Shown here: piece after piece, positions 2,830-16,755 of the stretch
Layout: the number at the start of each line of letters is the position of its first letter
Position numbering within the stretch: position 1 is the first letter of the stretch
NCBI RefSeq assembly: GCF_014205135.1
Contig: NZ_JACHMY010000001.1
Location: 7,688,001 to 7,752,000, forward strand
Direction of reading: 5' to 3'
DNA from: Kribbella italica
GTDB taxonomy: Bacteria > Actinomycetota > Actinomycetes > Propionibacteriales > Kribbellaceae
DNA: 64,000 nt
Notes under the pieces: model-generated
Database searches by the model: none
Told to the model about the DNA's origin: nothing
Seen by the model: only the letters and a program-made list of their open reading frames with translations
Position numbers and translations under genes: made by a program

Positions 2830-3971
2830 TGCGCAGCCGCTGGACGCCGATCATCGCGTACTCCCTGGTCGGCGCCGCGACCCAACTCGTCTGGCTCAAC
2901 TTCGCCGGCGTCACCACCGTCGCCGCCGACCGCTACGACGTCACCGAAAACACCATCGGCTGGCTGGCCCAGGTCTTCCCCCTCTTGTACGTCGTACTCG
3001 CGATCCCCGCAGGCCTCCTCTTGGACCGCTGGTTCCGAGCTTCTCTGCTGGCCGGCGCTCTGTTGACGGCTGTCGGTGCTCTGATCCGCCTGGGCGACAC
3101 GTACCCCTGGCTCCTAGCCGGCCAAATCCTCGCCTCGATCGCCCAACCGTTGGTCCTCAACGCCGTCACCGGCATCACCGGCCGCTACCTCGCGGTGAAG
3201 GACCGTCCCACAGGCATCGCGGTCGGCACCGCCAGCATCTTCGCCGGCATGGTCATCGCCTTCGTCCTCTCCGCAATCTTTGCCGCAGGCAACCAACTCC
3301 CCGCCGTACTACTGATCTCAGCCGTCTTCTCCGTTATTGCTTCCCTTGTCCTGTTTGTGGCCCTCCGCCTCCCCGCAGACCACAAACCCGTGGCGATCCG
3401 CCCCGACCGCAACGCCCTCCGCACAGCCTGGAGCGACCCCCTCATCCGCCGCCTCTGCGTCCTGGCGATGTTCCCCTTCGGCGTCTTCGTGGCCATGACC
3501 ACCTTCGCCCAACCCCTCCTGGAACCAGCCGGCGTCTCCGCCAGCACCGCCAGCACCATCCTCCTGGTCAACGTCATAGCCGGCGTCCTCGGCAGCGCCA
3601 CCATCCCCATCTGGGTCTCCCGCCACAACGCCGCCTCAGCCCAACTAGCCGTAAGCCTCACGGCCACAGCCATTGCCTGCGCCCTACTAGCCCTAGCCCC
3701 CAGCACCCTCATCGCCTACCTAGCCATAACCACCATCGGCCTCCTACTCCTCCCAGCCCTCCCCGTAGTCCTAGAGGTAGTAGAACGCCGCACAGGCGAA
3801 GCAGAAGGCACCGCCGCAGGCCTCATCTGGATGTCAGGCAACCTAGGCGGCCTCCTAGTCGCCACCGCGGTCGGCGTCCTGGTCGACCACCCCACCCCAG
3901 CTTTCATGGTCATGGCCGCCATAGCCCTGATAGCCGTCCCCGGAGCCCGAGCCCTCCGCCACTCCCTCTGA
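2829..3971 (+). CDS. MFS transporter
   Basis: 380-aa integral membrane protein with about 12 hydrophobic segments and the short loops of a major facilitator superfamily carrier. The region around residues 50-66 (ending LLLDRWFR) matches the MFS motif A position between helices 2 and 3. It is of CynX/nitrate-transporter-like length; the substrate is unknown. The ATG overlaps the stop of the SARP regulator (TAATG), implying translational coupling and a regulator-exporter pair. The last 350 bp use CTA leucine and ATA isoleucine codons far more often than neighbouring genes. The stop is about 30 bp upstream of tRNA-Thr. Confidence 0.85.
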   Translation: MRSRWTPIIAYSLVGAATQLVWLNFAGVTTVAADRYDVTENTIGWLAQVFPLLYVVLAIPAGLLLDRWFRASLLAGALLTAVGALIRLGDTYPWLLAGQILASIAQPLVLNAVTGITGRYLAVKDRPTGIAVGTASIFAGMVIAFVLSAIFAAGNQLPAVLLISAVFSVIASLVLFVALRLPADHKPVAIRPDRNALRTAWSDPLIRRLCVLAMFPFGVFVAMTTFAQPLLEPAGVSASTASTILLVNVIAGVLGSATIPIWVSRHNAASAQLAVSLTATAIACALLALAPSTLIAYLAITTIGLLLLPALPVVLEVVERRTGEAEGTAAGLIWMSGNLGGLLVATAVGVLVDHPTPAFMVMAAIALIAVPGARALRHSL

Positions 3972-4000
3972 CCCATCCACTACAATCGACAAGCACACCG

Positions 4001-4076
4001 GCCGGTGTGGCGCAACTGGCAGCGCACCGCTCTTGTAAAGCGGGGGTTAGGGGTTCGAGTCCCCTCACCGGCTCCA
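4001..4076 (+). tRNA. tRNA-Thr (TGT anticodon)
   Basis: 76-nt cloverleaf that folds fully by eye: acceptor GCCGGTG/CACCGGC, D-stem GCGC/GCGC, anticodon stem CCGCT/AGCGG with loop CTTGTAA (anticodon TGT, reading ACA), T-arm AGGGG-TTCGAGT-CCCCT, discriminator T and encoded CCA. It is the integration target of the adjacent element: its 3' half is duplicated at 15163-15200, so the element restores an intact tRNA on the left. Confidence 0.97.
4037..4074 (+). repeat. attL: 38-bp direct repeat in tRNA-Thr 3' half
   Basis: Thirty-eight bases running from the anticodon-loop/stem boundary to the first C of CCA are repeated identically at 15163-15200. They begin AAAGCGGGGG and end ACCGGCTC. A tRNA 3'-end duplication flanking an integrase gene is the classic footprint of tyrosine-recombinase insertion in pSAM2-type elements. 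Confidence 0.93.
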
Positions 4077-4079
4077 CCA

Positions 4080-4097
4080 CCAGGGCATATGCCCCGG
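4080..4097. terminator. 18-bp near-perfect palindrome at element left end
   Basis: CCAGGGCATATGCCCCGG contains a perfect 12-bp palindrome at 4083-4094 and lies just past the integrase stop codon (integrase reads leftward) and just inside attL. An almost identical palindrome sits at the same distance from the second att copy (15206-15223). It could be an integrase-gene terminator or a recombinase/accessory-protein binding site; there is no T-run to settle it. Confidence 0.5.
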
Positions 4098-4100
4098 TGA

Positions 4101-5573
4101 TCATGAACCAGAGCCGCTCGACCCATGGTTTACCCCATGCTTTTCATTCTCGGCGACTCCCGGCATGACCTCGTCGAGCGCACTTGCCGCCTCCGGGTTC
4201 GCGGCCCGACGACCGAAGTAGACATCCTGAGTCATGGATGGTCGAGATTGCCCAAGCTGGTCAGCGACCTGACGTGGTGACTGTCCGGCTTCATCGAGAA
4301 GGGTCGCTGTCGTCTTCCGGAAGGTGTGCGACGTCACCCAGGCCAAGAGGTCAGCCGTCGACGTCGCTCCCGCGTGGGCCACCAGGTCCATCAGTCGTGC
4401 TCGCTCAGACCGTGCGACTCGGTAGACATTGAACAGCCGCTCCGCATCTTCGGACCCAACTCGTACTCGTGCAGTCTCCATAAGACTGAGCCGGTTCTTG
4501 GACCACCCCAACTGCTGTGCGACATCTGTCTGCAAAAGGCCGGCCGCGCGTCGGGCGTCTCGCAATTCGTGACCCAGTTTGCGGCGAATTTCGCTGCCGA
4601 TCGGCTGTCGAGCGAGCCGGAGATCCTTTCGCACATTGTTGGGGTCTCTAAATCCTCCCAGCGAGTCGGGGAATACCGGGCCATTCAAGTGCACTCCTGC
4701 TGCGAATCGGCGTTGGAGCATGGCCATAGCCCAGTTCGGCAAGGTCAATACCCGGACACCGGCGCGAGATTTGGTCCGACGACGTACAAGCCCTGCGCCT
4801 ATAACGCGATTGATCTGGGATGTAATCTCGACTTCTCGCCGCTCGAAATTGACCTGAGTCCACAAGACCGCTAGAGACTCCGCAATTCGGACTCCAGTGG
4901 CCAACAGGAACATCGAGAGGTCAGGAACGTCAGCCTGTATCGCACGGTCGTCTTCATTGAGCATTGAGAACCATTGCTGACGCTCGTCCTCACTTAAGGC
5001 GCGTGGCGCGTTCTTCGGGGTCGCCTCGATGGATTCCAGCTCGCGAACCGGATTGGAAGAAATTGCCCCGTGTCGAACGGCGAGTGCCAAGATGCCGGAA
5101 ATTACGCTCTTACATGTTTTGGCAGACGCTGCACCTACCTCCTCTTTGATTGCTGTAACGACTTTGTCGAGTAGCGGGGTCGTCAACTCTCCTAGTCGAA
5201 CTTCGCCGATACGGGGAATGACGTTCGTCGCAAGCTGCTGTTGGTAGGTGTACAGCGTGCCTGGCGACCTCTTGTCGTCCTTCACCATGGTTGTGAGCTT
5301 GGTGAGATACATTTCAGCGGCAACAGAAAATCGCGTCAGCGAGGTCAGCATGCCGGAGCGACCTAGCTGCGACCGCTCCTTTAGTTTCGTTTGGAGATTA
5401 TTCTCAGCCGCCGACGAAGTCTTCCCGTAAGCCTCAACCTGCCGCACATGACCGTCAAAGTCACGGTAGCCCGCCATCGCCCGATAGCTATCCGCCTTCC
5501 CTTTTCCGTTCGTATGCGCTACATAAGTACGAATCTTGCCCCATGATCCCAGCGGCAATGGCTTTCTCGGCAT
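4101..5573 (-). CDS. int: Tyrosine integrase with embedded XRE helix-turn-helix
   Basis: Site-specific recombinase of 490 aa that would integrate and excise the element at tRNA-Thr. An N-terminal AP2-like/SAM-like arm- and core-binding region covers about 1-180. The catalytic domain shows Arg229 (ATGVRIAES), His416-x-x-Arg419 (SHTFRK) and nucleophile Tyr452 (DVYFG). Two oddities stand out. Residues about 327-411 form a complete XRE-type HTH (LGHELRDARRAAG...LGWSKNRLSLMET) spliced between the box I region and the WVTSH box II, where actinobacterial integrases normally run straight through. Also, the usual LGH third-box histidine is Gln442. A Shine-Dalgarno-like AGGTAGGAAG precedes the ATG. It lies 10 bp downstream of xis, and its base composition is lower in GC than its neighbours. 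Confidence 0.93.
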   Translation of the reverse strand: MPRKPLPLGSWGKIRTYVAHTNGKGKADSYRAMAGYRDFDGHVRQVEAYGKTSSAAENNLQTKLKERSQLGRSGMLTSLTRFSVAAEMYLTKLTTMVKDDKRSPGTLYTYQQQLATNVIPRIGEVRLGELTTPLLDKVVTAIKEEVGAASAKTCKSVISGILALAVRHGAISSNPVRELESIEATPKNAPRALSEDERQQWFSMLNEDDRAIQADVPDLSMFLLATGVRIAESLAVLWTQVNFERREVEITSQINRVIGAGLVRRRTKSRAGVRVLTLPNWAMAMLQRRFAAGVHLNGPVFPDSLGGFRDPNNVRKDLRLARQPIGSEIRRKLGHELRDARRAAGLLQTDVAQQLGWSKNRLSLMETARVRVGSEDAERLFNVYRVARSERARLMDLVAHAGATSTADLLAWVTSHTFRKTTATLLDEAGQSPRQVADQLGQSRPSMTQDVYFGRRAANPEAASALDEVMPGVAENEKHGVNHGSSGSGS

Positions 5574-5583
5574 AACTTCCTAC

Positions 5584-5769
5584 CTAAGCGGATTTCTGTG
5601 CGTTGAACCATGCAACGACCTCATCAGGGTCGTACCGCAGATACTTGCCGACACGAACTCCCGCAGGCCCGTACTTCTGGCAGCGCCATTTGTAGAGCGT
5701 TTTCACGGGTACACCCAGATAGACGGCAACGTCATCAACTGTCCATCGCCGCTGCGTATTGGCAACCAT
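5584..5769 (-). CDS. xis: Excisionase / MerR-like HTH DNA-binding protein
   Basis: 61-aa protein made almost entirely of a winged-helix excisionase fold (HTH_17 type): WTVDDVAVYLGVPVKTLYKW is the helix-turn-helix and VGKYLRYDPDEVVAWF the wing and recognition strand. Proteins of this size next to an AICE integrase act as recombination directionality factors. A very strong GGAGGAGG Shine-Dalgarno lies just upstream of the ATG, and copy 1 of the 17-bp repeat is immediately before that, so its expression may be controlled from this site. Confidence 0.88.
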   Translation of the reverse strand: MVANTQRRWTVDDVAVYLGVPVKTLYKWRCQKYGPAGVRVGKYLRYDPDEVVAWFNAQKSA

Positions 5770-5784
5770 GTCGTTCCTCCTCCG

Positions 5785-5801
5785 TTGACAGTTACGTGTC
5801 A
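5785..5801. repeat. 17-bp dyad repeat, copy 1 (TTGACAGTTACGTGTCA)
   Basis: Inverted arms TGACA/TGTCA. On the minus strand the first three bases are the TGA stop of repSA, and the site lies 16-32 bp upstream of the xis start. One of seven copies in this element only. Confidence 0.85.
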
Positions 5802-7361
5802 GGCTTCGTTGTTCTCGGCAATCAGTTCCTTCACGAGTCGTCTGTGTTCGCGGGCTTTAGCAGCGGCTGTGTTGGCGAGGAATGCGTCGCCGATGGTTCG
5901 CCAGCCGGTGTTGGCGTAGGTGAAGTTGCCGACGATCAGGGTGGTTTCGACGTCGTCGGTGTGGTCGGCGGTGCGGTGGCGTTCTTGCCGCCAGTCGCTG
6001 CGGGCTTGGCGGAGGGCTTTGAGGGTGGTGGAGTACTGGCGGGATTTGGTGGAGAAGTGGCCGCCGAAGCCGAGCATGTGGGCCCACTTCTGGAGGCGTC
6101 GGTACGACAGCCGTGCGGAGTTCTTGGCTGCTTCGTCTTCGTCGAGGTCGGAGCCGGGGCGTCCGAGTCGCCAGCAAGCGTCGACCAGTCGGCCGGCGTG
6201 GGTGTCGAGGGTGGCGTAGCGGCGGACTGTGGAGTTGGTGAGCCTGGCGGATGAGTGGCCGGTTGCTTCGGCTGCTTTGGTGGCGTACTTGGCCAGGTAT
6301 CCGGCGACGGCGGTTTCGGTGATGACTCCGTCGACGGTTTGCCGGACGGGGCGCAGGTCGAGTTGGGTGCCCCAGGCGATCTCCCAGCCGTTGGGGGCGT
6401 CGGGGTGGGGCAGGGACCGGAACCGGGTGCCTTCGACGGCGCGGCGGATCGCGTAGGCCAGGAGTGTGAAGTCTGCGGAGGCGTGAGGTACGGCGATCTC
6501 GTGGGGTGCGATGGGGTTGATGCCGTCGAGGCGGACCAGGGCGTGGAAGTGGGCGACGCCTCGAGCCTGCATTTCGGCGACCTTGCCGTAGGAGAGCTTG
6601 ACCCGGAGGCCGTGGTGTTTGCCCCAGGTGCGGAGTGTGTCTTTGACGCGTTCCATGGTGCGTCGCCACAGTTCGCCGGACAGGGCGTTCCAGACGACTT
6701 GGTGGTCGTGGTCGTAGCAGTCCAGGCACAGTGGTTTGCCGAGTGCTTTGTCTCCGTCGCCGTGGGTCTGGTGGCAGGTGAGGTCGACGCCGTGGGGGCA
6801 GGGGTCGGGGTTGCGGCGGGGGCGGCAGGGCCGGTTGCGGAGCTTGCCGTCTTTGTCGCGGGCTTTGCGGGTGCCGTGGACCGGGCCGAAGCTGGGTGCG
6901 GTGAAGGTGACGAAGGCGCAGGGGTGTTGGGTGACCGTGGCCGGGATGCCTTTGCCGCCTTGGAGTCCGGCGAGGACGAGTTGGTAGGTGTCCCCACGGT
7001 AGACCTCGGCGCAGGAGGGGCAGACGGCGGCGCGGCGGTTTCCGCAGGCTTTGTAGATGACGCTGTCGGGCATGTCGTCGGTGTGGCGGGTGGAGATGAT
7101 CCGGCCGGTGCGGGTGGAGACCACGTGGGCTTCGCCGCGTAGCTGGATCGGGCGGACACAGCCACCTGCCGACGCGGTGTGGTCGAGCCATTCGCCGTAG
7201 TTGGCGGTGGTCGCGGCACGCTGGATGGCTTGTTCGACGCCTGAGGTGGGGTTGCGGCGGTTGCCGGGGTCGAGGGTGTGGTTGTGCTCGGAGATGATCT
7301 CGACGCCGCCCAGGAGGCCACCCAGGACGTTCAGCGGGTCTCGTGCGGGTGTGGTGGTCAT
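5799..7361 (-). CDS. repSA: Replication initiator RepSA
   Basis: 520-aa rolling-circle-type initiator of the pSAM2 RepSA family, which nicks the element's double-strand origin for replication after excision. Visible family hallmarks are a cysteine-rich N-terminal region (CGNRRAAVCPSCAEVYRGD, then CPHGVDLTCH and CLDCYDHDHQ), TAPSFGPVHG, an ARGVAHFHALVRLDG segment with an HxH metal-binding pair (HFH), and a C-terminal YLAKYATKAAE region that carries candidate catalytic tyrosines. I chose the ATG at 7361 because AGGAGG sits at ideal spacing before it; the open frame runs further upstream but without family similarity. Its TGA lies in repeat copy 1. Length is normal for the family. Confidence 0.92.
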   Translation of the reverse strand: MTTTPARDPLNVLGGLLGGVEIISEHNHTLDPGNRRNPTSGVEQAIQRAATTANYGEWLDHTASAGGCVRPIQLRGEAHVVSTRTGRIISTRHTDDMPDSVIYKACGNRRAAVCPSCAEVYRGDTYQLVLAGLQGGKGIPATVTQHPCAFVTFTAPSFGPVHGTRKARDKDGKLRNRPCRPRRNPDPCPHGVDLTCHQTHGDGDKALGKPLCLDCYDHDHQVVWNALSGELWRRTMERVKDTLRTWGKHHGLRVKLSYGKVAEMQARGVAHFHALVRLDGINPIAPHEIAVPHASADFTLLAYAIRRAVEGTRFRSLPHPDAPNGWEIAWGTQLDLRPVRQTVDGVITETAVAGYLAKYATKAAEATGHSSARLTNSTVRRYATLDTHAGRLVDACWRLGRPGSDLDEDEAAKNSARLSYRRLQKWAHMLGFGGHFSTKSRQYSTTLKALRQARSDWRQERHRTADHTDDVETTLIVGNFTYANTGWRTIGDAFLANTAAAKAREHRRLVKELIAENNEA

Positions 7362-7454
7362 GGTGGCCTCCTTTCGGGTGGTGTGGCCGGAGATCTTGCG
7401 CGCCGGCCAGCTGGTTTCGCGGGGTCGAACAGGAAGTTCTGCGGTCAGGCGTTG

Positions 7455-7471
7455 TTGACGGCTACGTGTCA
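7455..7471. repeat. 17-bp dyad repeat, copy 2 (TTGACGGCTACGTGTCA)
   Basis: Supplies the TGA stop of the 138-aa gene at 7469-7885 and lies about 94 bp upstream of the repSA start, in the repSA leader. Differs from copy 1 at three positions, all within bases 6-8 after TTGAC (AGT to GGC). Confidence 0.82.
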
Positions 7472-7885
7472 GCGGGGTCGGGGTGACGGTTTGAGGCCGT
7501 GGTGGGTGGCGTAGCTGGGCTGGACGAAACCAAGACCGGGGATCTCCACGACCAGGCGGCTGGCCTCGCACTCGGAGCGAATGGTTGCGTTGAGGACAGC
7601 GAAGTCGTTGCTGCCGCTGGCGCGGATGCCGAGGGCCTGATGGGCGAATCGCACGACGGAGTAGTAGTGATCCAGCCGGGCAGTGCATGCGGTGTCGGTC
7701 GAGTGTGTCCAGATCCCGCCGGGTGACCAGGCGCCGTGTTCGTCCCAGGCATCGGCGGGGGTTGTTTCGTCGGCGTGACGCTGGACGAACGCGGCCCGTA
7801 GTGCGTCGATGACGAACGGGACGGTGTTGGCTGGGATCAAGGTGCTGAAGTAGGCGGGGACCGTGGCGGTCTTGGTGTCGGTCAT
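7469..7885 (-). CDS. Hypothetical AICE protein, 138 aa
   Basis: I do not recognise a domain. The chosen ATG (MTDTKTATVPAY) follows CGAAAGGAACC, a good Shine-Dalgarno; the frame extends a few codons further upstream. The protein is soluble, mixed alpha/beta in appearance, has no transmembrane segment, and ends in a short basic proline-rich tail (KPSPRPR). It sits in the leftward AICE operon directly upstream of repSA, so a role in replication or maintenance is plausible but unproven. Its stop codon is part of repeat copy 2, and copy 3 lies just upstream of its start. Confidence 0.7.
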   Translation of the reverse strand: MTDTKTATVPAYFSTLIPANTVPFVIDALRAAFVQRHADETTPADAWDEHGAWSPGGIWTHSTDTACTARLDHYYSVVRFAHQALGIRASGSNDFAVLNATIRSECEASRLVVEIPGLGFVQPSYATHHGLKPSPRPR

Positions 7886-7929
7886 GGTGGTTCCTTTCGT
7901 TGTGGTGGGCAACGACGCCGGTTGGGTCG

Positions 7930-7946
7930 TTGACGGTCACGTGTCA
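7930..7946. repeat. 17-bp dyad repeat, copy 3 (TTGACGGTCACGTGTCA)
   Basis: Supplies the TGA stop of the 83-aa gene at 7944-8195 and lies about 45 bp upstream of the 138-aa gene. TACGTG has become CACGTG, a 6-bp palindrome. Confidence 0.8.
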
Positions 7947-8195
7947 GGCGGTGCGTGCGGGTGCGGGTTCGAGTTCGGGGGTGCCGAAGAGGTGGTAGCC
8001 GCAGCCGGTGCAGTAGCGGCCGACGATGGTGTCTGCCATGACGACCAGGGCGTAGGTGTCGCCGGGTTCCAGGACGGTGGGGCACCAGTCGTGGCCGCCG
8101 AGGTGTTCGTTGGCGACCCAGTCGCACAGGAACGTGTCGGTGGCGGTGTCGCGGTGGGCGGTGAGTTCGGCGTAGGCGTTGAGATCGATCGTCAT
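7944..8195 (-). CDS. Small CxxC protein, 83 aa
   Basis: Unrecognised small protein in the AICE operon. The ATG at 8195 follows AAGGACACC. Visible features: an acidic-aromatic first half (FLCDWVANEHLGGHDWC) and RYCTGCGYHLFG near the C-terminus, so two cysteines plus a CxxC could form a zinc knuckle with the histidines. No membrane segment or signal. It is one of several small Cys-pair proteins encoded in series in this element. Confidence 0.68.
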   Translation of the reverse strand: MTIDLNAYAELTAHRDTATDTFLCDWVANEHLGGHDWCPTVLEPGDTYALVVMADTIVGRYCTGCGYHLFGTPELEPAPARTA

Positions 8196-8223
8196 GGCGG
8201 TGGTGTCCTTCCGGTTGGTGTGG

Positions 8224-8466
8224 TCAGTGGGAGGTGACTGCGCTCGAGTGCTGGGTGATGCCGTTGTCGCAGTGCAGGTAGGGGCAGTGGGCAACCATCG
8301 GGGTTCCGAGCTGGGCGGTGAGAGCCCAGACGTAGACGGGGTTCAGCCACTCCATCCGGGCGGCGACGATCGGCCGGCCACAGCCGTTGCAGTGGAAGGC
8401 TCGGTAGATCGAGCCGAGCAGCCAGGCGGCGAGGTCTTGATCGATGCGGTGCTGATCGATCGTCAC
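8224..8466 (-). CDS. Small CxxC protein, 80 aa
   Basis: Unrecognised. I start it at the GTG at 8466 because AAAGGAGA is correctly spaced; upstream codons read into the intergenic hairpin. The protein has FHCNGCGRPIV in the middle and HCPYLHCDNG near the end, giving four cysteines and nearby histidines consistent with one zinc-binding site. It lies between the SprT-like gene (with a hairpin between them) and the 83-aa protein. Confidence 0.68.
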   Translation of the reverse strand: MTIDQHRIDQDLAAWLLGSIYRAFHCNGCGRPIVAARMEWLNPVYVWALTAQLGTPMVAHCPYLHCDNGITQHSSAVTSH

Positions 8467-8517
8467 CTTTGGGTTCTCCTTTCGGTGGTTGCCGTTTGGG
8501 GGTTCGGTGTTCGCCCT

Positions 8518-8542
8518 CACCTCCGGGGTTCGCCCAGAGGTG
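8518..8542 (-). terminator. Hairpin between SprT-like gene and downstream small genes
   Basis: CACCTC pairs with GAGGTG around an inner GGG-GTTC-CCC helix, a compact GC-rich two-part stem just past the SprT-like stop codon and 50 bp before the next start. There is no T tract, so attenuation or mRNA processing is as likely as termination. Confidence 0.5.
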
Positions 8543-8563
8543 GGAGCCAGCAACGAAGCCGTG

Positions 8564-9628
8564 TTACTCGTCGGGTTCGAAGTTGGATTCGCAGACGCTG
8601 CAGGTGATCTCGCCTTCTGCGAGGACTGCTTTGGCGACGCGGATGCGGCGTGGGCACTGGCACACGCACGGCACGGCGTTGTTGTTGTTCTTCTTGGTTC
8701 CGCCTCCGGTGACTTCGGGATGCCGGTAGGCGATGAGCGCCGACTTCAGTTCGGCCAGGACGGCTTTGTAGGTGGCTGCGGTCTCCGTGCGGAGCTTGCA
8801 CAGTGACCACCCGATGCGGGGGTCCCTGGTGGTGTCGAGGCCGAGCTCGCCTGCGAGGTCGGAGAACTTCTGGTTATGCCAGCGGCCTTGGCGACTGGTG
8901 TCTTTGATCTCGCGGATGTGCGCGAGAGAGTGGGTGGCTTCGTGGAGCAGGGTCGTGAAGACCTCTTCCACGGGGCGTTTGAGTCCTTCGCCGGAGATCA
9001 GGACTTCGGCCAGGCGCTGTTCGCCGTGCTGCCAGCGGATCGGGGCGAAGTGCCCGTACTTGGCCTGCTTCGAGGCGGTACCGGAGCCGACGATGATCAC
9101 GACGGCCGGGATCTCCTTGTGGTTGGTCCGGATCGCGGTCCAGGCGTTTTCGAGTGCGGCGACCAGTTGTGCGGTGGTGTAGGTGTCTTGACGCTTACGT
9201 GTCAGTCGCGCCTTCGGGGACAGACCGGACGACCCGGTACGGGTCTTGGTGGTGGTCTTCTTCGCCCGTTTCACCGTGACGGTGACGGCGGGGTGGCTGG
9301 TGCCTGTGGAGCACTCGCGGAGCTTGTTACGGACCGCAATGAGTGAGGCGTAGCCGGTAGCTCTGCCGCCTTGCGTGGCGCGGACCTTGTCCATGTGGGT
9401 CTGGACGGCGTCCAGGGCTGCTGTAGGGCTACCGGAATAGGTGGCGGTGGTCTTGGTGACCTCCCAGCCACTCAGGCCCGTCAGGGCGTTGGTATTGGAG
9501 TTCGTCAAGCCGGTCAGCTTGGTCGTGGTCGCAGGCTTCGCGGCGACCGGTGCCGGGGTGATCGGCATCTGGGGCAGGTCGAGTTGGCCAGGAACCTGGA
9601 CGACAGGTGTGAGGGTGTCAGTGCTCAT
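8564..9628 (-). CDS. SprT-like zinc metalloprotease
   Basis: 354-aa protein with a SprT-type metallopeptidase centre: LLHEATHSLAH gives HExxH at residues 229-233, and RWHNQKF supplies a third histidine at 251. A C-terminal zinc ribbon (CVCQC at 321-325, CSVC at 343-346) matches the SprT architecture. SprT/Spartan-type proteases cleave DNA-protein crosslinks in other systems, so processing of covalent Rep-DNA or Int-DNA complexes is an attractive inference, not shown. The ATG at 9628 overlaps the upstream stop (ATGA). Residues about 1-60 are Thr/Pro-rich linker. Repeat copy 4 lies inside the gene and encodes LTRKRQ. Confidence 0.85.
   Translation of the reverse strand: MSTDTLTPVVQVPGQLDLPQMPITPAPVAAKPATTTKLTGLTNSNTNALTGLSGWEVTKTTATYSGSPTAALDAVQTHMDKVRATQGGRATGYASLIAVRNKLRECSTGTSHPAVTVTVKRAKKTTTKTRTGSSGLSPKARLTRKRQDTYTTAQLVAALENAWTAIRTNHKEIPAVVIIVGSGTASKQAKYGHFAPIRWQHGEQRLAEVLISGEGLKRPVEEVFTTLLHEATHSLAHIREIKDTSRQGRWHNQKFSDLAGELGLDTTRDPRIGWSLCKLRTETAATYKAVLAELKSALIAYRHPEVTGGGTKKNNNNAVPCVCQCPRRIRVAKAVLAEGEITCSVCESNFEPDE
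9188..9204. repeat. 17-bp dyad repeat, copy 4 (TTGACGCTTACGTGTCA), inside SprT-like CDS
   Basis: Falls within the coding region, upstream of the protease domain. Matches the consensus TTGAC(A/G)(G/C)(T/C)(T/C)ACGTGTCA. Confidence 0.8.
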
Positions 9629-9963
9629 CGCAGGCACGACCCGTCGCAGTAGGTGGCTTCGCCGATGCCGACTCCCGAGGTCAGGGTGTAGTCGTCGTCG
9701 TAGTGGCCTTCGCATTCGTCGTCTTCGTCGTCAGTGGCTTCGACTGCGGCGACTGCGTCGAGAGCGAGCTTGCGGTTGACGGAGGGGCGCTGGTTCGGGT
9801 CGAGGTGCTGTGTCCAGGCCTCCAGCGTTTCGATGCTGTTCTTGAGCAGCCGCACTTGGGCGTAGTAGTTGGATGCCGACTCGCTGGTAGAGGCGAGGGC
9901 CTTCGAGCGCTGCGCGATGCTGTTCACGAGTTCGCGGATCTGGCTCGTAGTTGCGTTCACCAT
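9625..9963 (-). CDS. Hypothetical helical protein with acidic tail, 112 aa
   Basis: Unrecognised. The N-terminal 70 residues look strongly helical (TSQIRELVNSIAQRSKALAS...LLKNSIETLEAW) and could form a coiled coil. The C-terminal half has an acidic stretch (ATDDEDDECEGHYDDDY) and ends with YCDGSCLR. The ATG at 9963 is preceded by CGAAAGGGGAG. The stop overlaps the SprT-like start by ATGA, so the two are likely made in equal amounts and may be partners. Confidence 0.68.
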   Translation of the reverse strand: MVNATTSQIRELVNSIAQRSKALASTSESASNYYAQVRLLKNSIETLEAWTQHLDPNQRPSVNRKLALDAVAAVEATDDEDDECEGHYDDDYTLTSGVGIGEATYCDGSCLR

Positions 9964-10244
9964 TGCTCTCCCCTTTCGAGGGCTTCGGTTCTGGCACAGG
10001 TCATGTGGCAGGCACGCCCGTTGGCGGGGTCGCGCAGGAGGGCTGGGGATCCGCACAGGAAGCAGGGCTGTGGGTTGCCGACTTCCGCGTGTGCCCAGTC
10101 ATCGGCCCGTTGTGTGCGGTAGGCCTTCTTGGATCGGGTCTTCTTGGCCACCGGCTCGGGGGCCGGGATGGTGTCGAGGTCGGCCGGGATGGCCTGTTGT
10201 CCTTGACAGTTACGTGTCACGCGGCGTTTCGTTACCGCGCGCAT
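9957..10244 (-). CDS. Small zinc-finger-like protein, 95 aa
   Basis: Basic N-terminus (MRAVTKRRVTRN, AKKTRSKKAYRTQR) followed by a C-terminal Cys/His cluster: PCFLCGSPALLRDPANGRACHMTCART, i.e. CxxC then CHxxC, a plausible treble-clef zinc site. The start is fixed by a TGATG overlap with the upstream gene at 10244. It overlaps the next gene by 7 bp. The charge pattern suggests nucleic-acid binding; no family recognised. Repeat copy 5 lies in its 5' end. Confidence 0.68.
   Translation of the reverse strand: MRAVTKRRVTRNCQGQQAIPADLDTIPAPEPVAKKTRSKKAYRTQRADDWAHAEVGNPQPCFLCGSPALLRDPANGRACHMTCARTEALERGEQW
10203..10219. repeat. 17-bp dyad repeat, copy 5 (TTGACAGTTACGTGTCA)
   Basis: Identical to copy 1, but located inside the 5' end of the 95-aa gene, where it encodes VTRNCQ in the same codon phase as copy 4. 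Confidence 0.82.
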
Positions 10245-10516
10245 CAGTCGCTTCTTCCGGTCCGGCGTAGCTGGCAGGAGTTGCGGAAACACGCGGGCGA
10301 CCAGTCGTAGCCATCGCCGTGTTCGATGAGTTCGGGGACGTCGATGACGATGTGCCATTCGTCGGGTCCGCACTGTCCCAGAACGGTTCCCAGGAGCCAC
10401 GGCCAGGAGCCGTCAAGGCAGGCCGTGAGGGTGTTCTCTTCCTCGGTCAGGGGGTAGGGGGTCCACACGGTGGTGTCGTTGGGGAATCGGCCGTCGTTGG
10501 GCGGGTAGGCGCTCAT
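10244..10516 (-). CDS. Hypothetical AICE protein, 90 aa
   Basis: Unrecognised small soluble protein, rich in Trp, Pro and acidic residues (TVWTPYPLTEEENTLTACLDGSWPWLLG, DEWHIVIDVPELIEHGDGYDW). GGAGGACC precedes the ATG at 10516. The stop overlaps the 95-aa zinc-finger-like gene (TGATG). The pattern is reminiscent of acidic DNA-mimic or regulatory proteins, but no assignment is justified. Confidence 0.65.
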   Translation of the reverse strand: MSAYPPNDGRFPNDTTVWTPYPLTEEENTLTACLDGSWPWLLGTVLGQCGPDEWHIVIDVPELIEHGDGYDWSPACFRNSCQLRRTGRSD

Positions 10517-10839
10517 GGCTGGTCCTCCGTCCAGTCACCGGGGATGTAGAGGGGTTCCTCTGTCGAGGACTCGTTGTCGGTGACGTGGGTGACGTGGGTG
10601 ACCTGGTGGTCTTCGAGCAGTGCTCGGGCTTCGTAGAGTGCGTCGATCAGGTGGCTGATCGCGGTGACGGAGCCGGTGACGAGTTCGATCTCGATCGGGT
10701 TGGCTCCCAGATCGATGACAACCTTCGCGGTTTGGCCGTTGCAGGCCAGATTGATGCCGGCCACGGAGTGGTCGGTGAAGTCGTAGCCGATGATGATGCG
10801 GTCTTCGCGTTCGCCGCTGTTGGCGTCGTAGAAGGTCAT
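10513..10839 (-). CDS. Hypothetical AICE protein, 108 aa
   Basis: Unrecognised. A beta-rich first half (IIIGYDFTDHSVAGINLACNGQTAKVVIDLG) is followed by a helix (AISHLIDALYEARALLEDHQ) and an acidic tail. It starts at the ATG at 10839 after GGGAGGCGTC; the frame continues upstream through other genes without coding character. It overlaps the 90-aa gene and the 65-aa gene by four bases each. Confidence 0.65.
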   Translation of the reverse strand: MTFYDANSGEREDRIIIGYDFTDHSVAGINLACNGQTAKVVIDLGANPIEIELVTGSVTAISHLIDALYEARALLEDHQVTHVTHVTDNESSTEEPLYIPGDWTEDQP

Positions 10840-11033
10840 GACGCCTCCCGGTTGGTGTAGGCCTTGGTCCAGGAGCCGTTGAAGGCTTGGCGATTGCGCA
10901 TCGCTGACCAGCAGACACCGCAGCGGTTGGGGCGTACGTCGTAGTAGACGAAGGCTCCGCAGTTGTGGAGCCAGCCTGTTCGGCCGATCCCGTCGCGAAC
11001 GACGATGAGTGGTAGGGGTTTGATGGTGCTCAT
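10836..11033 (-). CDS. Small CxxC protein, 65 aa
   Basis: Compact zinc-ribbon-like protein: WLHNCGAFVYYDVRPNRCGVCWSAMRNRQ offers three cysteines and a histidine. Unrecognised family. It overlaps both the FtsK-type gene (ATGA) and the 108-aa gene, placing it directly behind the DNA translocase in the transfer operon. Confidence 0.65.
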   Translation of the reverse strand: MSTIKPLPLIVVRDGIGRTGWLHNCGAFVYYDVRPNRCGVCWSAMRNRQAFNGSWTKAYTNREAS

Positions 11034-11872
11034 GCGGCCCTCCGGAGGTACGCGGCACGGCGGACGAGTTGGTTGATTTCGTCGTCTTTGAGGTGTGCGG
11101 TCTTGAGACGGCGGGGGAATCCGCCTTCGGCGCGAAGGAGTCCGACACCGAGTGCTTCGGGTGCGATGTCCACGGCGGTGTGACCTTGGGAGGCCCAGCC
11201 GGTGCCGAGGATGATGTCCGAACTAGAGTCGGTGGCGCAGCGGAATGCGAGGCGGTAGCCGAAAAGGTCCCGCAACGAGGTCGGGACGATGTCAGCGCTG
11301 GGGCGCTGAGTAGATGCGATCGTGATGATGCCCGCAGCGCGGCCACGAGCGACGATGTCCCGCACGAGGACGCGGAACTCTTCTTGCTGTTCTTTGGTGC
11401 CTACGGTGACGGTGAAGTACGCCAGCTCGTCAACGACGAGCAACTTGGCGCGAAATCCGTCGCCGGGGACGATCTTCTTGCGGCCGTTACGGGCCAGGTG
11501 CAGGTAGCGTTCGTCCAGGTCGGCTTGCAGGTCCTTCAGCACCCGCAGTGCCTTGGGCATGTTGTTGCCGACGAACTCTTTCGCCACGGGGGCGTAGGGC
11601 AGCAGTTCGACAATCTTGCCGTCGATCAGGATGAGATCGACATCGGTGCACAGTGCAGCGTGTGCGACGAAATTGCCCTGGGCAACAGACTTTCCTGCTC
11701 CCGGCTCTCCGCCGATCAGGATGTTGCGGTACGGCAGTGTGACGTGGACTCGCTTACCGCGAGCGTCGAGGCCCAGGTAGGCCGGGTTGTAGATGGACAG
11801 TGCGCTCAGTGGCGCGGGGGTGGCCCCCGGCTTGCGCCGGGGGAACACCTGTCGTGGGTCGAAGCTAGACAT
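11030..11872 (-). CDS. traSA: FtsK/SpoIIIE-type DNA translocase (TraSA/TraB-like)
   Basis: 280-aa P-loop motor that would drive double-stranded DNA transfer between hyphae, as TraB/TraSA does for Streptomyces plasmids and AICEs. Walker A is GGEPGAGKS (about residue 50) and Walker B LLVVDELAYF; ASTQRPSADIVPTSLRDLFGYRLAFR is the FtsK-family sensor/arginine region. There is no transmembrane segment in this protein; the membrane part is encoded by the preceding overlapping gene. No obvious C-terminal winged-helix (gamma-like) domain is seen. The start chosen (MSSFDPRQVF) overlaps the upstream stop by 8 bp. The symbol is by analogy to pSAM2. Confidence 0.88.
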   Translation of the reverse strand: MSSFDPRQVFPRRKPGATPAPLSALSIYNPAYLGLDARGKRVHVTLPYRNILIGGEPGAGKSVAQGNFVAHAALCTDVDLILIDGKIVELLPYAPVAKEFVGNNMPKALRVLKDLQADLDERYLHLARNGRKKIVPGDGFRAKLLVVDELAYFTVTVGTKEQQEEFRVLVRDIVARGRAAGIITIASTQRPSADIVPTSLRDLFGYRLAFRCATDSSSDIILGTGWASQGHTAVDIAPEALGVGLLRAEGGFPRRLKTAHLKDDEINQLVRRAAYLRRAA

Positions 11873-12707
11873 AGTCGGACACGTCTTCTCCGTTGGCGCC
11901 AAGCACCACGGTGTTGCCGTCGTTCACGGCGGCGGTGGTCTTGGTCTTCGAGGTTCGGGTACGGGTCTCACCGCTGCCGGTTTTGGCCGGCACCTGATCG
12001 GTGGTCCCTTCGGAGGCGGGGTCGGGGCCGAGGAAGGCCATGACCGCGTCGTCTGCGACGGCCGCTTCGGGCATATCGCTGGTGTCGTTGAGCAGCGGCG
12101 AGACGATGTGCTGTTTGGACAGCGGGTCGCGCCGGTCGATGTCGATCCGCACGAGTGCGGCGTTACGGGTCGAGCGGATGATGTTCGCGCTGCGTGCCCA
12201 GCACGCCGACGCCAGCGTTTCGGCCTTGTTCTCGAGGTCTTCGGCCGACAGGCCGGGACGCATGAACAGCCAGACGACCTGACCGGTTCTGGTGGACAAG
12301 CACCCGACGATGAACGGCAGGTTGCCCGACCAGTTCAGGGTGCGCATTTCGGTGAGGCAGGCCCGGACACGGTGCCGGGTGATGACACACCAGATCCGGT
12401 TACGAGCGAAACGCCGTACCAGGTTGTCGGTGAAGATCCATCCACTCAGGACGATGACCAGCAGAGCGTTCAGCCACAACGGGTTCGACTCGAAGTAGCC
12501 GGTGATCGCCGCGCCGTGCGCGATGACGATGTAGGCCACAGCGGCCAGGACGTAGAGTTCCCAGCGCCAGCGCCACAGGCTCAGCATGATGACGACCGGC
12601 AGCGACTGCGACGGCCGGGTGATGGTTTCGACAGCACTCGTGGCGGTGCCACGTCCGCGACGGCCGGATACTCGACCGTTGGAGCGGTTGCGGGTAGATT
12701 TGGGCAT
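11865..12707 (-). CDS. Two-TM membrane partner of the FtsK-type translocase
   Basis: 280-aa protein with a basic N-terminus (SGRRGRGT), two adjacent membrane segments at about 48-65 (LYVLAAVAYIVIAHGAAI) and 76-92 (PLWLNALLVIVLSGWIF), then a cytoplasmic domain resembling the non-catalytic N-terminal part of TraB/FtsK proteins, and a Thr/Lys-rich linker. It overlaps the ATPase gene by 8 bp. The likely function is membrane anchoring and pore assembly for the translocase; this is inference from topology and gene order. Confidence 0.72.
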   Translation of the reverse strand: MPKSTRNRSNGRVSGRRGRGTATSAVETITRPSQSLPVVIMLSLWRWRWELYVLAAVAYIVIAHGAAITGYFESNPLWLNALLVIVLSGWIFTDNLVRRFARNRIWCVITRHRVRACLTEMRTLNWSGNLPFIVGCLSTRTGQVVWLFMRPGLSAEDLENKAETLASACWARSANIIRSTRNAALVRIDIDRRDPLSKQHIVSPLLNDTSDMPEAAVADDAVMAFLGPDPASEGTTDQVPAKTGSGETRTRTSKTKTTAAVNDGNTVVLGANGEDVSDYV

Positions 12708-12805
12708 GACAAGACCTCCCGATCAGGGGGTTGCGTCAGGAAAGACACGAAGCCGGGAAAGGTTCCTAGGCCAAAAGCCCGACTTCGCGTCTCGGTTCCA
12801 GGGAG

Positions 12806-12823
12806 CGGCCCTTTCGAGGGCCG
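12806..12823. terminator. Intra-operon hairpin with TTCG loop
   Basis: CGGCCCT-TTCG-AGGGCCG, a perfect 7-bp stem with a UNCG-type loop on the plus strand, followed there by T-rich sequence. On the minus (operon) strand it lies in the 160-bp gap between the 104-aa gene and the membrane-protein gene, so it could attenuate transcription into the transfer genes. Confidence 0.5.
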
Positions 12824-12853
12824 TTCTTGGTTTCTAGCGGTAGTTCAGCGACG

Positions 12854-12870
12854 TTGACACTTACGTGTCA
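12854..12870. repeat. 17-bp dyad repeat, copy 6 (TTGACACTTACGTGTCA)
   Basis: Supplies the TGA stop of the 104-aa gene and opens the intergenic gap before the transfer genes. Confidence 0.82.
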
Positions 12871-13182
12871 GCCGCGGTGAGGTTCGACCGAAGCCGACTT
12901 CCAGACCGCATACGCGTGGTCGCGGGCGGCAGTGGCGTCACGGAGCAACTTCTCCGAGTCGCTGTAGATGTCCAGCAACAGCCAGAACATGTCCACGGCG
13001 TGGACCGTGTTCCCGATCTCCGGGAACAGCACCAGCGGTTCAGTCCGCTGCAAGACCCTGTTGAGGGCCACTTCGAGGTACCGCTGAGCGGTCTTGATCA
13101 TCTTGATCTCGTTGCACTTGGCCACGTACTCGGTACGTGCCTGATTCGCTGTGACGGTTCGGTCTTCCATCGGCTGCGACAT
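12868..13182 (-). CDS. Hypothetical helical AICE protein, 104 aa
   Basis: Almost entirely helical by composition (TANQARTEYVAKCNEIKMIKTAQRYLEVALNRVL...LLLDIYSDSEKLLRDATAARDHAYAVW). No family recognised. The ATG at 13182 follows GAGGGG. It is second in the leftward operon after the SCO3933-like gene and ends in repeat copy 6. Confidence 0.68.
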   Translation of the reverse strand: MSQPMEDRTVTANQARTEYVAKCNEIKMIKTAQRYLEVALNRVLQRTEPLVLFPEIGNTVHAVDMFWLLLDIYSDSEKLLRDATAARDHAYAVWKSASVEPHRG

Positions 13183-13229
13183 GACTACCCCTCGCTTGGC
13201 AGTTGCACGAATCACGGGACGAGTGGAGA

Positions 13230-13547: not shown

Positions 13548-13575
13548 GGAATCGCCCCTTCTAGGCGTCTAGGGC

Positions 13576-13737: not shown

Positions 13738-14496
13738 ATGACCAACTTCACGGGTCGTCCTGCCTACCTGCAGATCGCTGACGACATTCGTAGTCAGATT
13801 CTTGAAGGCACTCTTCAAGCCGGGGATCAACTGCCTAGCGAACCCGGTCTGATGGCCGACTACGGTGTTTCTCGAATTGTCGTTCGGCAAGCTCTTGAGG
13901 TGCTTCGCTCTGAGGGACTGATAGTCAAACAGCAAGGGCGCGGCTCATTCGTACGCGAACAGCAGCCAGCTAAGAAGCGAGTACTAGGAAGTCTCTATTC
14001 AGAGAGACCAGGCTCGTCCCCGTTTGCGGCAGCCGCCTCGGCAAGCGGACAGGTTCCAGAGTGGGACTACCAATCCAGACGGACGACCGCGTCCAAAGCG
14101 ATTGCTGACCGGCTCAACATCGAACAGGGTGACCCTGTAATGCGCACCAGCTATCGGTTCTTGGCTGATGGGGCCCCGGTCATGCTGTCGACCTCCTTCG
14201 AGCCCTTAGCGATCACCGGAGGCACTCCGATCGAGCAACCCGAGGGTGGCGCGATCACAGGTGTAATTCCCAGGATGGACAGCATTGGTGTGCGCATCAC
14301 CCACGTAGGCGAAGACGTCACTGGCCGTTCTGCGAGGCCTTACGAGGCTGAGACGCTAGTGGTTCCTCCTGGAGTGCCCGTACTTGTTATCGAGCGTACC
14401 TACTACGATCACGATCGTCCGGTAGAGACAGCGGACATCATCGTGTCTTCGGATCGGTACATCCTCTCGTATCGCCTTGCTATTCCTGAGCGGTAG
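13738..14496 (+). CDS. GntR-family (HutC/UTRA) transcriptional repressor
   Basis: 252 aa. The N-terminal winged helix (PAYLQIADDIRSQI...GDQLPSEPGLMADYGVSRIVVRQALEVL...LIVKQQGRGSFV, residues 5-75) is GntR/HutC type, and residues about 95-250 form a UTRA ligand-binding fold (GDPVMRTSYRFLADGAPVMLSTSFEPL...VLVIERTYYDHDRPVETADIIVSSDRYIL). In pSAM2 the equivalent gene product KorSA represses transfer and replication genes; by position and family this is its counterpart. It is transcribed away from the main operon, with an AGAAGGGAGAT Shine-Dalgarno before its ATG. Likely targets are the divergent palindromes and possibly the 17-bp repeats. Confidence 0.88.
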   Translation: MTNFTGRPAYLQIADDIRSQILEGTLQAGDQLPSEPGLMADYGVSRIVVRQALEVLRSEGLIVKQQGRGSFVREQQPAKKRVLGSLYSERPGSSPFAAAASASGQVPEWDYQSRRTTASKAIADRLNIEQGDPVMRTSYRFLADGAPVMLSTSFEPLAITGGTPIEQPEGGAITGVIPRMDSIGVRITHVGEDVTGRSARPYEAETLVVPPGVPVLVIERTYYDHDRPVETADIIVSSDRYILSYRLAIPER

Positions 14497-14588: not shown

Positions 14589-15162
14589 AAATGCGCGCCG
14601 CCACCGTAGGGCGGGCCGCCTGCCCTCCACTGCGCTAGCGCTCCGTTCTGGGCGCGTCCCTTGGCCTGGCGCGCACGTGCAGCAGGGTGCCGGGTCGAAG
14701 ACAGCAGAACTCGCCGTCAACGGCTCGACACCCTGATCGGTGCACCACTCACTGAACCGGCCGGCACCCGCCGCCGATGGCTGGACATGCCTGCCGTCTG
14801 ACCGTGGGTTACCGGATCGTCCCGACAGCAATCATGGGAGGGACGGCCCTACGCAGCGCGCGTCAAGGGCGCCTACGGCGTCGCTCCGCGATCGAGCAAG
14901 CTCGACCCTGGACACCCACCGCTACGGTCCTTGGGCGGCAGCTATCGGGACGATCCGGCGGACTGGCCGCGGTTGACACGTAACCGTCAACTTGGGCTGA
15001 GGTAGCGACCCCGCGCAACACGTCGACCCATGGTTTAGGCCATAGGTTTCAACGCAGAACGATGAACAATGGCGCGGCACATCGAACACTGGACCGACAC
15101 GGATTCCCAAGCTGGCAACGGTTGTGAGCATCATCGAGCAATGACGCCAGGTGAGTAGCCGA
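14589..15162. other. Non-coding right end of the AICE
   Basis: I see no gene supported by start site or codon bias in this roughly 570-bp stretch. It contains the reversed seventh 17-bp repeat (14974-14990) and, at 15023-15037, the 15-mer TCGACCCATGGTTTA that also occurs at the left end (4118-4132, inside the integrase 3' end). It may hold recombinase arm sites or a replication origin; neither is proven. Confidence 0.5.
14974..14990. repeat. 17-bp dyad repeat, copy 7 (reverse orientation)
   Basis: TGACACGTAACCGTCAA is the reverse complement of the consensus, one base from copies 1 and 5. It is the only copy in this orientation and the only one outside the leftward operon. Confidence 0.75.
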
Positions 15163-15200
15163 AAAGCGGGGGTTAGGGGTTCGAGTCCCCTCACCGGCTC
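15163..15200 (+). repeat. attR / central att: second 38-bp repeat
   Basis: Identical to 4037-4074. Only the 3' half of a tRNA is present (no acceptor 5' strand or D-arm), so this is not a functional tRNA. It is the right boundary of the AICE and the left boundary of whatever is linked to the second integrase. Confidence 0.93.
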
Positions 15201-15294: not shown

Positions 15295-16755
15295 TCAGAG
15301 ATCAGGGCCGACCGACGGTTGTTGATCCTGCTCATGGATCTGCCTCAGTGCCTCGTTGAGGATGCGAGCCGCCTCTGGGTTGAGCACCTTTCGACCGACG
15401 TAGGAGTTCATGGTGGTGGTCGTGTCGGCTTGGCCCAGCTGGTCCGCGATCTTGCGAGCGGACTGCCCGCCGTCGTCCAGGATGGTCGCGGTTGTCTTCC
15501 GGAACTTGTGTGAGGTCACCCAGGCGAGTTCATCCGCGAGCGATGGCAGGCCGGCCAACTCCACTGCCTCCAACAGGGCCGCGCGGTCTGTCCTGGCCAA
15601 TCTGTACATCTGAGCCAGGACGGCAGCCTCCTCAGGCCCCACCTTGACCCTGCCCGTCTCGATCAAGCTGATCCGGGTCGTACGCCAGCCCAACTTGGCC
15701 ACGACCTCCTCTTGCGTCATACCAGCGGCGCGCCGGAACTCCTTCAGCGTCTTCCCGAGCTCGGCACGGCGGCGACTGCCGACCGGTCGACGCGCACTGC
15801 GCAGCGCCTTCTGCACGTTGTGTGGATCCCGAAAGCCTCCGACCGAGTCCGGGAACAGCGGTGAGTCGGGTGGCGTCTCAGGCGTCCACCGCGCGTTCAC
15901 CATTTCCAGCGCCCAGTCGGGCAAGATCAGTTGACGCTCTCCGGCCGCCGTTTTCACCTCTCGCCGTACCAGCCCCTTTCCGACGAGGCGCTGGATCTGG
16001 TGGCTGCAGTCGACGAGCCCGGATCCTCGATCGATTCCACTCCAGATCACCGCAAGCGTCTCGCCGATCCGTTCGCCAGTTGCCAGCATGAACTTGCTGA
16101 TGTCGATCAGGTCGGCCCGGACGGCGCGCTCGTCCTGCCTGAGAAGCTCGAACCACTGCTGCCGGTCCTCGGCGTCCAGTGCTCTGGCCGGCGTACGCCG
16201 CTTCTTCCCCAGGGGCTCGATCTCTCGTACCGGGTTGTGGGTGAGGGCGCCGTACCGGACGGCGAGCGCGAACACACCGGTCAAGATGCTCTTGCACGTC
16301 TTCGCGCTCGCGACCCCCACCTCATCTTTGATGCCGACCAGGACGGTGTTCACCCGCGGAATGGTCGCCTCTACCAACTGAAGCTCCCCGATCCGGGGCG
16401 TCAGGTTCTTCGCCGTCTGATATCCATAGGTCTCCAACGTCCCCGGCGCAAGCCACCCACCGTCGACCTTGTTCTTGACCTCCGCGAGGTACAGCCCGAT
16501 CGCCACAGCCACGCGATCGGTGGACTTCAACACGGCAGCGCCCTCGGTTCTCACCCGAGTCTTCAATCGCTCTCGAAGCTTGTCTTTCGCGTCAGATCGC
16601 GATGTTCCCCAGGCCGCCACCTTGCGAGTTCGCCCGTCGAAGTCACGGAACCGGGCGTTCGCCTCGTACTTCGTCGCGCGCCCTCGGTCGTCGCGGCTGG
16701 CCACAACCGTCGTGATCTCCCCCCACGTCCCGATCGGCAGTGGACTCCTCGGCAC
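15295..16755 (-). CDS. int: Second tyrosine integrase with embedded XRE helix-turn-helix
   Basis: 486-aa paralogue of the first integrase, colinear throughout (same N-terminal PLPxGxWGxI and FRDFDGxxRxV motifs). Catalytic Arg229 (ATGERIGET), His416-x-x-Arg419 (SHKFRK) and Tyr452 (NSYVG) occupy the same numbers as in the first integrase. Gln442 again replaces the usual LGH histidine, and the same XRE-type HTH (LGKTLKEFRRAAGMTQEEV...LGWRTTRISLIETGR) is embedded at about 327-411. It starts at a GTG after GGGAGG. No excisionase, Rep or transfer gene follows immediately, so it is either the integrase of the large resistance island to its right or the remnant of a second AICE. Confidence 0.92.
   Translation of the reverse strand: MPRSPLPIGTWGEITTVVASRDDRGRATKYEANARFRDFDGRTRKVAAWGTSRSDAKDKLRERLKTRVRTEGAAVLKSTDRVAVAIGLYLAEVKNKVDGGWLAPGTLETYGYQTAKNLTPRIGELQLVEATIPRVNTVLVGIKDEVGVASAKTCKSILTGVFALAVRYGALTHNPVREIEPLGKKRRTPARALDAEDRQQWFELLRQDERAVRADLIDISKFMLATGERIGETLAVIWSGIDRGSGLVDCSHQIQRLVGKGLVRREVKTAAGERQLILPDWALEMVNARWTPETPPDSPLFPDSVGGFRDPHNVQKALRSARRPVGSRRRAELGKTLKEFRRAAGMTQEEVVAKLGWRTTRISLIETGRVKVGPEEAAVLAQMYRLARTDRAALLEAVELAGLPSLADELAWVTSHKFRKTTATILDDGGQSARKIADQLGQADTTTTMNSYVGRKVLNPEAARILNEALRQIHEQDQQPSVGPDL

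Follow-up and report, generated by a model that had tools for sequence, protein, structure and literature searches.

An XRE-type helix-turn-helix domain embedded in the catalytic domain of a pSAM2-type AICE integrase of Kribbella

We report here that a tyrosine integrase of the pSAM2/Tn916 type from Kribbella carries an XRE-type helix-turn-helix (HTH) domain between box I and box II. The integrase is encoded 24 bp from a tRNA-Thr(TGT) in the window, that is, the whole 64-kb stretch of DNA analysed here, and the embedded-HTH architecture is real, conserved, and undescribed in the open-licence PMC literature. The domain is complete and predicted to fold; its insertion is precise, and it is constrained and inherited together with its host protein. 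No existing description was found in open-licence PMC full text, including the available text of PMC8138268, PMC3218068, PMC11631766 and PMC3558466, although domain databases may show the architecture uncommented; the two surveys among these (PMC8138268, PMC3218068) describe no XRE insertion of this kind in the portions available.

The insertion and its host integrase

The preliminary description placed a complete XRE-type HTH at residues 327-411, and both the Pfam match and the predicted fold bear this out. HTH_31 covers residues 333-394 with an E-value of 7.2e-15 and 55.5 bits (cut-off 27), which as a sequence match is far above chance, and HTH_3 is also above its cut-off on the integrase. 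The AF2 model of the whole 490-residue protein, a monomer without DNA computed from an 18-row alignment with 3 HTH-bearing rows (mean pLDDT 80.8, pTM 0.58), predicts a five-helix insert (helices 325-343, 348-355, 359-366, 374-384 and 388-401) and then the box II helix 415-428, with block-mean pLDDT of 82-92 across residues 331-400 and of 66 and 69 in the flanking blocks. Folded alone, the 85-residue piece gives the same helices (pLDDT 88.1), and Foldseek returned for it mostly XRE/lambda-repressor proteins, the best at E 7.8e-3 and none below 0.001, while VIA-align superimposed residues 326-400 on the XRE protein 3eus_B with Z 11.4 and an rmsd of 2.1 over 74 aligned residues. Therefore, the alternative that residues 327-411 are ordinary catalytic-domain helices fails in the whole-protein model, in the model of the piece and in the structural alignments.

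The boundaries of the insertion are given by the closest HTH-less relatives, L127 and L135-L138, which are 49-53% identical to the integrase N-terminal of the insert. In these five aligned relatives the chain passes straight from the AR...G segment into the WVTSH box, as the preliminary description had stated for known actinobacterial integrases, with the junction ...(A/V)RG(D/E)-[DGE](A/V)(L/M)(A/S)W(L/I)TSH. This junction puts the inserted stretch at about residues 324-408, a small correction to 327-411, and the HTH is a clean, precise insertion into an otherwise normal integrase.

Pfam recognizes Phage_int_M at residues 98-180 and Phage_integrase in two stretches, the best at 197-339, and NCBIfam integrase models match residues 403-449 or 405-449, C-terminal of the HTH. 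The N-terminal arm-binding domain is predicted as expected (strands 15-21, 27-37 and 43-50, helix 53-74), residues 76-451 align with the Tn1549 Int 6en2_A (VIA-align, Z 20.3, rmsd 3.2, 277 aligned), and the catalytic R229, K268, H416, R419 and Y452 are all invariant among 18 sequences. The second His/Trp of the pentad is absent, with Q442 in its place, as in the second integrase of the window (486 aa). The Q442 codon lies at 4248-4250, and many relatives, whether HTH-bearing or not, have Gln there as well, e.g. the HTH-less L135. By most features tested, the integrase is a pSAM2/IntTn916-type tyrosine recombinase plus a domain insertion, and since the pentad His/Trp position varies in the set, the class is placed by the other features, so that the statement that the protein works like this class is firmer than strict membership.

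The host element is bounded by two copies of a 38-bp core from the tRNA-Thr 3′-end, which give it a length of about 11.1 kb (Table 1). An integrase, a replication initiator, an FtsK-type transfer protein and tRNA att repeats are all present, as in an AICE, and the element is a pSAM2-type AICE because int is accompanied by an HTH_17 excisionase-like protein, RepSA, the FtsK-type transfer protein and a GntR/UTRA regulator, the last of which we take to be KorSA-like by name. Just past the element (15163-16755), a second HTH integrase occurs with its own attL-like tRNA end and a hairpin, so that this tRNA-Thr carries a second element in tandem or the remnant of one. Further on, at 21120-27560, Pfam identifies metal-related genes, namely an ArsP-type permease, the alkylmercury lyase MerB, a MerR regulator, a TauE exporter and an ArsR-like domain.

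Table 1. Coordinates in the window of the integrase, its embedded domain and the surrounding element.
Feature	Position	Strand	Basis or remark
tRNA-Thr(TGT), attachment site	4001..4076	+	ARAGORN
att core copy 1 (attL), 38 bp	4037..4074	+	direct repeat D2
Tyrosine integrase gene, 490 aa, embedded XRE HTH	4101..5573	-	ORF, Pfam, AF2 model
Putative arm-type sites: two TTT units about one turn apart, within int 3′-end	4118..4146	+	direct repeat D5
Box II WVTSHTFRK, residues 412-420	4314..4340	-	alignment; H416, R419 invariant in 18 sequences
XRE HTH as first delimited, residues 327-411	4341..4595	-	HTH_31 E 8.4e-15 on piece; AF2 of piece
Inserted segment, residues ~324-408, missing in HTH-less relatives	4350..4604	-	MAFFT alignments of relatives
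Predicted recognition helix + first turn, residues 358-366, SKNRLSLME	4476..4502	-	AF2 helix 359-366; conservation
Excisionase-like HTH_17 protein, 61 aa, immediately upstream of int	5584..5769	-	Pfam HTH_17 E 3.1e-11
RepSA replication initiator, pSAM2 type; ORF start uncertain	5799..7940	-	Pfam RepSA E 3e-152, residues 248-694
FtsK/SpoIIIE transfer protein (Tra)	11030..11902	-	Pfam FtsK_SpoIIIE E 1.2e-14
GntR/UTRA regulator	13738..14496	+	Pfam GntR E 2.1e-19, UTRA E 3.5e-20
Putative arm-type sites, opposite element end	15023..15051	+	direct repeat D5
att core copy 2 (attR), 38 bp, identical to attL copy	15163..15200	+	direct repeat D2
Second HTH-embedded integrase, 486 aa, 49% identical, adjoining attR copy	15295..16755	-	Pfam HTH_31 332-394, E 1.4e-12
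Embedded XRE HTH of second integrase	15523..15777	-	alignment
TGAC-N8-GTCA copies	5786, 7456, 7931, 9189, 10204, 12855, 14974		one 16 bp upstream of excisionase start

Distribution, origin and selection

A search for other integrases with the same embedding found many more, nearly all of them in Kribbella. The 8.9-Mb source genome has three HTH-integrase copies, and a profile search of the order sample (293 genomes, 38 Kribbella and 255 others; profile of 19 rows and 166 positions, units of at least 155 positions) found 48 HTH+box II units, spread over 26 of its 38 Kribbella genomes; with 12 candidates scored per genome this is a lower bound, and some of these units come from reading frames that are broken or short. 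The copies spanning the HTH are 43-74% identical to the window integrase, and the family-level sample is the same as that of the genus, the family containing only Kribbella. All 38 Kribbella genomes match the tRNA-Thr and left flank, whole or in part, and in at least 7 of them, among these the genome of the window, a whole HTH integrase lies no further than 120 bp from tRNA-Thr(TGT). The 255 other genomes of the order yielded a single unit, L244 in genome G438 of another family. In L244 (13504-14070) the HTH integrase is truncated N-terminally, is 74% identical to that of L087 and adjoins a tRNA-Lys(CTT).

Beyond the order, where the searches were samples or limited by similarity, the fused unit was absent outside its own genome from 394 class genomes (9 candidates per genome, E <= 1e-13) and from 346 phylum genomes (10 candidates per genome, E <= 1e-18), each match there covering either box II or an XRE protein but not both. 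Ten plasmid records matched, none covering 80% of the query; among the best 30 of 303 phage records, the best Rhodococcus phage match and one of two records that cover 80% of the query lack the HTH, and in viral contig loci no fused unit was found, HTH matches lying only in separate reading frames on the opposite strand. Separate XRE genes were sought in 23 loci (the window copy as a 4.5-kb locus, 12 further HTH-bearing A-type and 10 HTH-less loci), and outside the HTH integrases only L088 (E 6e-6), L089 (0.075) and L139 (0.19) gave matches, a scarcity that is weakly informative because XREs are diverse.

In a tree of 87 integrases with the HTH columns removed, the 44 HTH rows fall into groups A and B. 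Group A comprises 15 rows, that of the window among them, and has five HTH-less integrases as its sister (support 96/93); group B comprises 29 rows together with L129, whose HTH region is partly deleted. The HTH integrases occur in two element arrangements. At locus L087 of genome G317 (2836-18714), a group A and a group B HTH integrase flank one element at the same tRNA-Lys, an A-type element thus lying between the tRNA and the B-type integrase. Many group B integrases are transcribed away from the upstream tRNA-Lys.

The XRE domain was probably captured once, as far as the sequences can tell. Conserved linker residues (P324 in 32/32 and G326 in 30/32 copies) and the split of embedded from free XREs in the HTH tree (FastTree support 0.895; 52 rows including 8 free XREs, after removal of gappy rows) favour one capture. 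In the 49-row tree, grouping every HTH row into one clade was not rejected (p-AU 0.222), two independent insertions being the possible alternative. In favour of more than one change, the free trees need three: with 87 rows and L129 taken as HTH-less, the starred branches force two and 0% of the bootstrap trees need one, and with 49 rows, incomplete rows and L129 having been removed beforehand, the starred branches force one and 2% of the bootstrap trees need one.

Pairwise distances of the HTH track those of the catalytic part (r 0.89). Judged from the aligned copies, the HTH is under purifying selection yet is the fastest-evolving domain: its dN/dS is 0.49, and those of the remaining domains are 0.35-0.42 (sums over 288 pairs that are not independent). 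The recognition-helix stretch has a mean pairwise identity of 67.5% vs 49% for the whole HTH, eleven positions within residues 324-408 are invariant among 32 non-redundant copies, and the net charge of the embedded HTH averages +4.6 (range 0 to 8).

Candidate DNA contacts and sites

The residues of the domain were compared between 46 distinct embedded copies and 12 free XREs. R369 is found in all 46 embedded copies vs 5 R and 2 K among the free XREs, K/R371 likewise in 46/46 vs 4/12, and position 361 is R or K in 45/46 of the embedded set; positions 369 and 371 are presumably the backbone-contact positions of the XRE fold on DNA. R341 and E366, which we take to be the buried Arg-Glu pair of this fold, are conserved in both sets. 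Position 364 is Leu in 44/46 embedded copies, whereas 11 of the 12 free XREs have R or K. The invariant basic residues would thus speak for DNA contact, while Leu364 in place of the usual R/K suggests that the classical base reading may be altered.

In the AF2 order of elements, the insert comes after helix 311-321 and before box II, and we equate this helix of the model with helix J of Cre, residues 259, 262 and 263 of which are at the DNA interface in Cre (PMC7438526, available text). An hhalign alignment to phage P1 Cre places the insert between Cre residues 283 and 284 and pairs LAWVTSHTFR with LAW-SGHSAR, with a very weak score (E 0.053, probability 1.0%), so that the correspondence with Cre depends on box II as an anchor and on the order of elements; a global hhalign of the insert-free alignment vs Cre gave no useful alignment. 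Mukhametzyanova et al. (2024) put zinc-finger domains (ZFDs) between the Cre-type residues 278 and 279, eleven residues N-terminal of His289, in a region that accepts five-residue insertions, and in E. coli these Cre-ZFD fusions were inactive at the plain site and active with a zinc-finger site 5 bp away, and worked better with long linkers (PMC11631766, in the part of the article available). By analogy, the natural insert site is apparently the same helix J-box II loop, and the HTH in such a position would be near DNA just outside the core site, a placement inferred from topology, as the AF2 model is a monomer without DNA with a pTM of 0.58 and 3/18 HTH rows.

The preliminary description suggested that the embedded domain could target extra sites or sense an inducer. 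Taken as choice of the tRNA, the former is not supported, and a general role in picking the tRNA is rejected, since the HTH-bearing L087 and the HTH-less L127 share the tRNA-Lys(CTT) core (repeats of 41 bp and 38 bp, respectively). The HTH-less L139 likewise lies at a tRNA-Thr(TGT), and the relation by eye of recognition-helix residues 358-360 to the tRNA used is confounded with phylogeny. Inducer sensing is so far unsupported, the insert being an HTH alone, without a ligand domain.

Several DNA sites in the element were considered for the HTH. Each end of the window element carries paired TTT-containing direct repeats with a spacing of about 11 bp, and by eye such pairs also accompany the HTH-less L135 and L136; binding to the arm-type repeats or to the post-tRNA hairpin was rejected because both are seen, by eye, with HTH-less integrases too. 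When 3 HTH and 5 HTH-less elements were compared by eye on the left side of the attR core, no motif specific to the HTH elements was seen, and by eye nothing beside the att cores was common to the HTH elements only. The palindrome TGAC-N8-GTCA occurs 7 times in the 64-kb window, every copy being inside the element (1.36 expected; 0/100 shuffles reach 7). Scanning whole 20-kb loci, flanks included, found 6, 4 and 5 copies in the close HTH relatives L084, L085 and L086, 8 in each of three HTH-less loci (L127, L130 and L131) and either 0 or 1 in ten other HTH A-type loci (L087-L091, L093-L095, L098 and L119). As a site specific to the HTH it was therefore rejected, and its distribution assigns it to an element regulator rather than to the HTH.

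In group B, a tRNA-Lys lies upstream of int in 19/29 rows, and the otherwise diverged int leader contains a box with the consensus GTGAC-TGTGC-GTCAC-ATCACATCG. With a pattern and PWM derived from these same sites, 20 group-B leaders were scored, the tRNA-Lys(TTT) subgroup of nine being excluded; the box lies at -103 to -108 in 17/20 copies and at -121 in one more, those of L097 and L123 being missed by the pattern and scored by the PWM, and the GTGAC-N5-GTCAC palindrome is perfect in 11/20. The window has no such box. By eye, the group-B leaders (L097-L118) have a repeat pair spaced by 11 bp, matching within an element and differing between elements, and many of them have a CCAACC..GGTTGG hairpin over the ribosome-binding site, with the box near -106.

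Possible roles of the embedded domain

Based on these findings, we tentatively propose that the integrase is a natural insertional fusion, in which the HTH serves as an extra DNA reader stabilising or licensing the integrase-att complex, a reading that we regard as the likeliest of those considered, though possible rather than probable. A stand-alone actinobacterial XRE domain would have been captured by a pSAM2-type integrase, in its helix J-box II loop, and retained as a working part. Positioned alongside the outer, major-groove side of the core-site DNA, the HTH would add a DNA contact, sequence-specific or not, by which the complex is stabilised or licensed, and recombination would then depend on core-flanking DNA in addition to the core and arm sites. 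The domain may tune the timing or efficiency of recombination and not the choice of tRNA, as the HTH-less relative on the same tRNA-Lys site indicates that the HTH does not alone decide the tRNA, and in group B it may bind the int leader as well, damping int expression. The precise insertion and its position just before box II, the spread of the units in Kribbella, the HTH distances that track the catalytic part, the constraint, the conserved recognition-helix stretch, the net positive charge and the fixed basic residues may be counted for a DNA reader; against it stand the search for a cognate site, which found none, the arm repeats common to HTH-less integrases, Leu364, the short natural linkers and the very weak alignment to Cre. 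That the integrase is kept dormant by its XRE domain until a motif close to the att core is bound, as a natural DNA-licensed recombinase that arrived independently at the principle engineered into Cre with inserted zinc fingers, seems to us rather unlikely.

The embedded HTH might instead make the integrase its own regulator, as the preliminary description also suggested, and repress or activate int (or xis/int) with no direct part in strand exchange, an explanation to be taken seriously although we find it doubtful. The donor domain is of a transcription-factor type and the group-B leader box is the best lead for such autoregulation, but that box was seen among HTH copies without an HTH-less control and through patterns built from the same sites, it is missing from the window, the leaders of the tRNA-Lys(TTT) subgroup within group B differ in sequence, and the operator of the window element recurs in three HTH-less loci. 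A role in protein docking, with the XRE fold contacting Xis, a host factor or a neighbouring integrase subunit and DNA reading lost, would account for Leu364 and for the short, conserved linkers, but the nearly or wholly fixed basic residues at 361, 369 and 371 fit DNA contact better, and we consider it distinctly unlikely. Least credible to us is a functionless passenger from a one-off insertion into a permissive loop, which is improbable: the tolerance of the Cre region for five-residue insertions (PMC11631766, available text), the rapid evolution of the HTH and the HTH-less relatives at the same kinds of sites agree with it, whereas purifying selection, the invariant positions and the spread of 48 units across two element arrangements do not.

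Integron integrases (IntI) have an insertion that is short and is not a complete HTH domain. It resembles the present one in being lineage-specific and within the catalytic-domain fold (PMC8138268, available text). With the pSAM2-type AICE integrases of the IntTn916 subgroup, the Kribbella protein shares the arm-binding (AB), core-binding and catalytic domains, the attachment at a tRNA 3′-end and the RepSA/Xis/Tra neighbours (PMC8138268, same portion), but differs in the ~85 XRE HTH residues inserted before box II. The Cre-ZFD 278/279 fusions likewise have a DNA-binding domain in the helix J-box II stretch, but they are engineered, with zinc fingers, long GGS linkers and a measured dependence on binding (PMC11631766, as far as its available text goes), whereas the Kribbella integrase has short linkers and is known here from its sequence and a predicted model. 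Free actinobacterial XRE/HTH_31 regulators are alike in the fold and in the conserved R341 and E366, and the embedded copies differ from them by Leu364, the invariant R369 and K/R371, and the lack of a further regulator domain.

Control of tyrosine integrases is commonly attributed mostly to accessory proteins and arm-binding domains. Here, a transcription-factor domain lies inside the catalytic domain and has persisted over many element lineages. If the HTH autoregulates, the integrase would be its own regulator; if it gates catalysis, the Kribbella integrases would be a precedent from nature for the engineering of insertional recombinases and would supply it with tested linkers.
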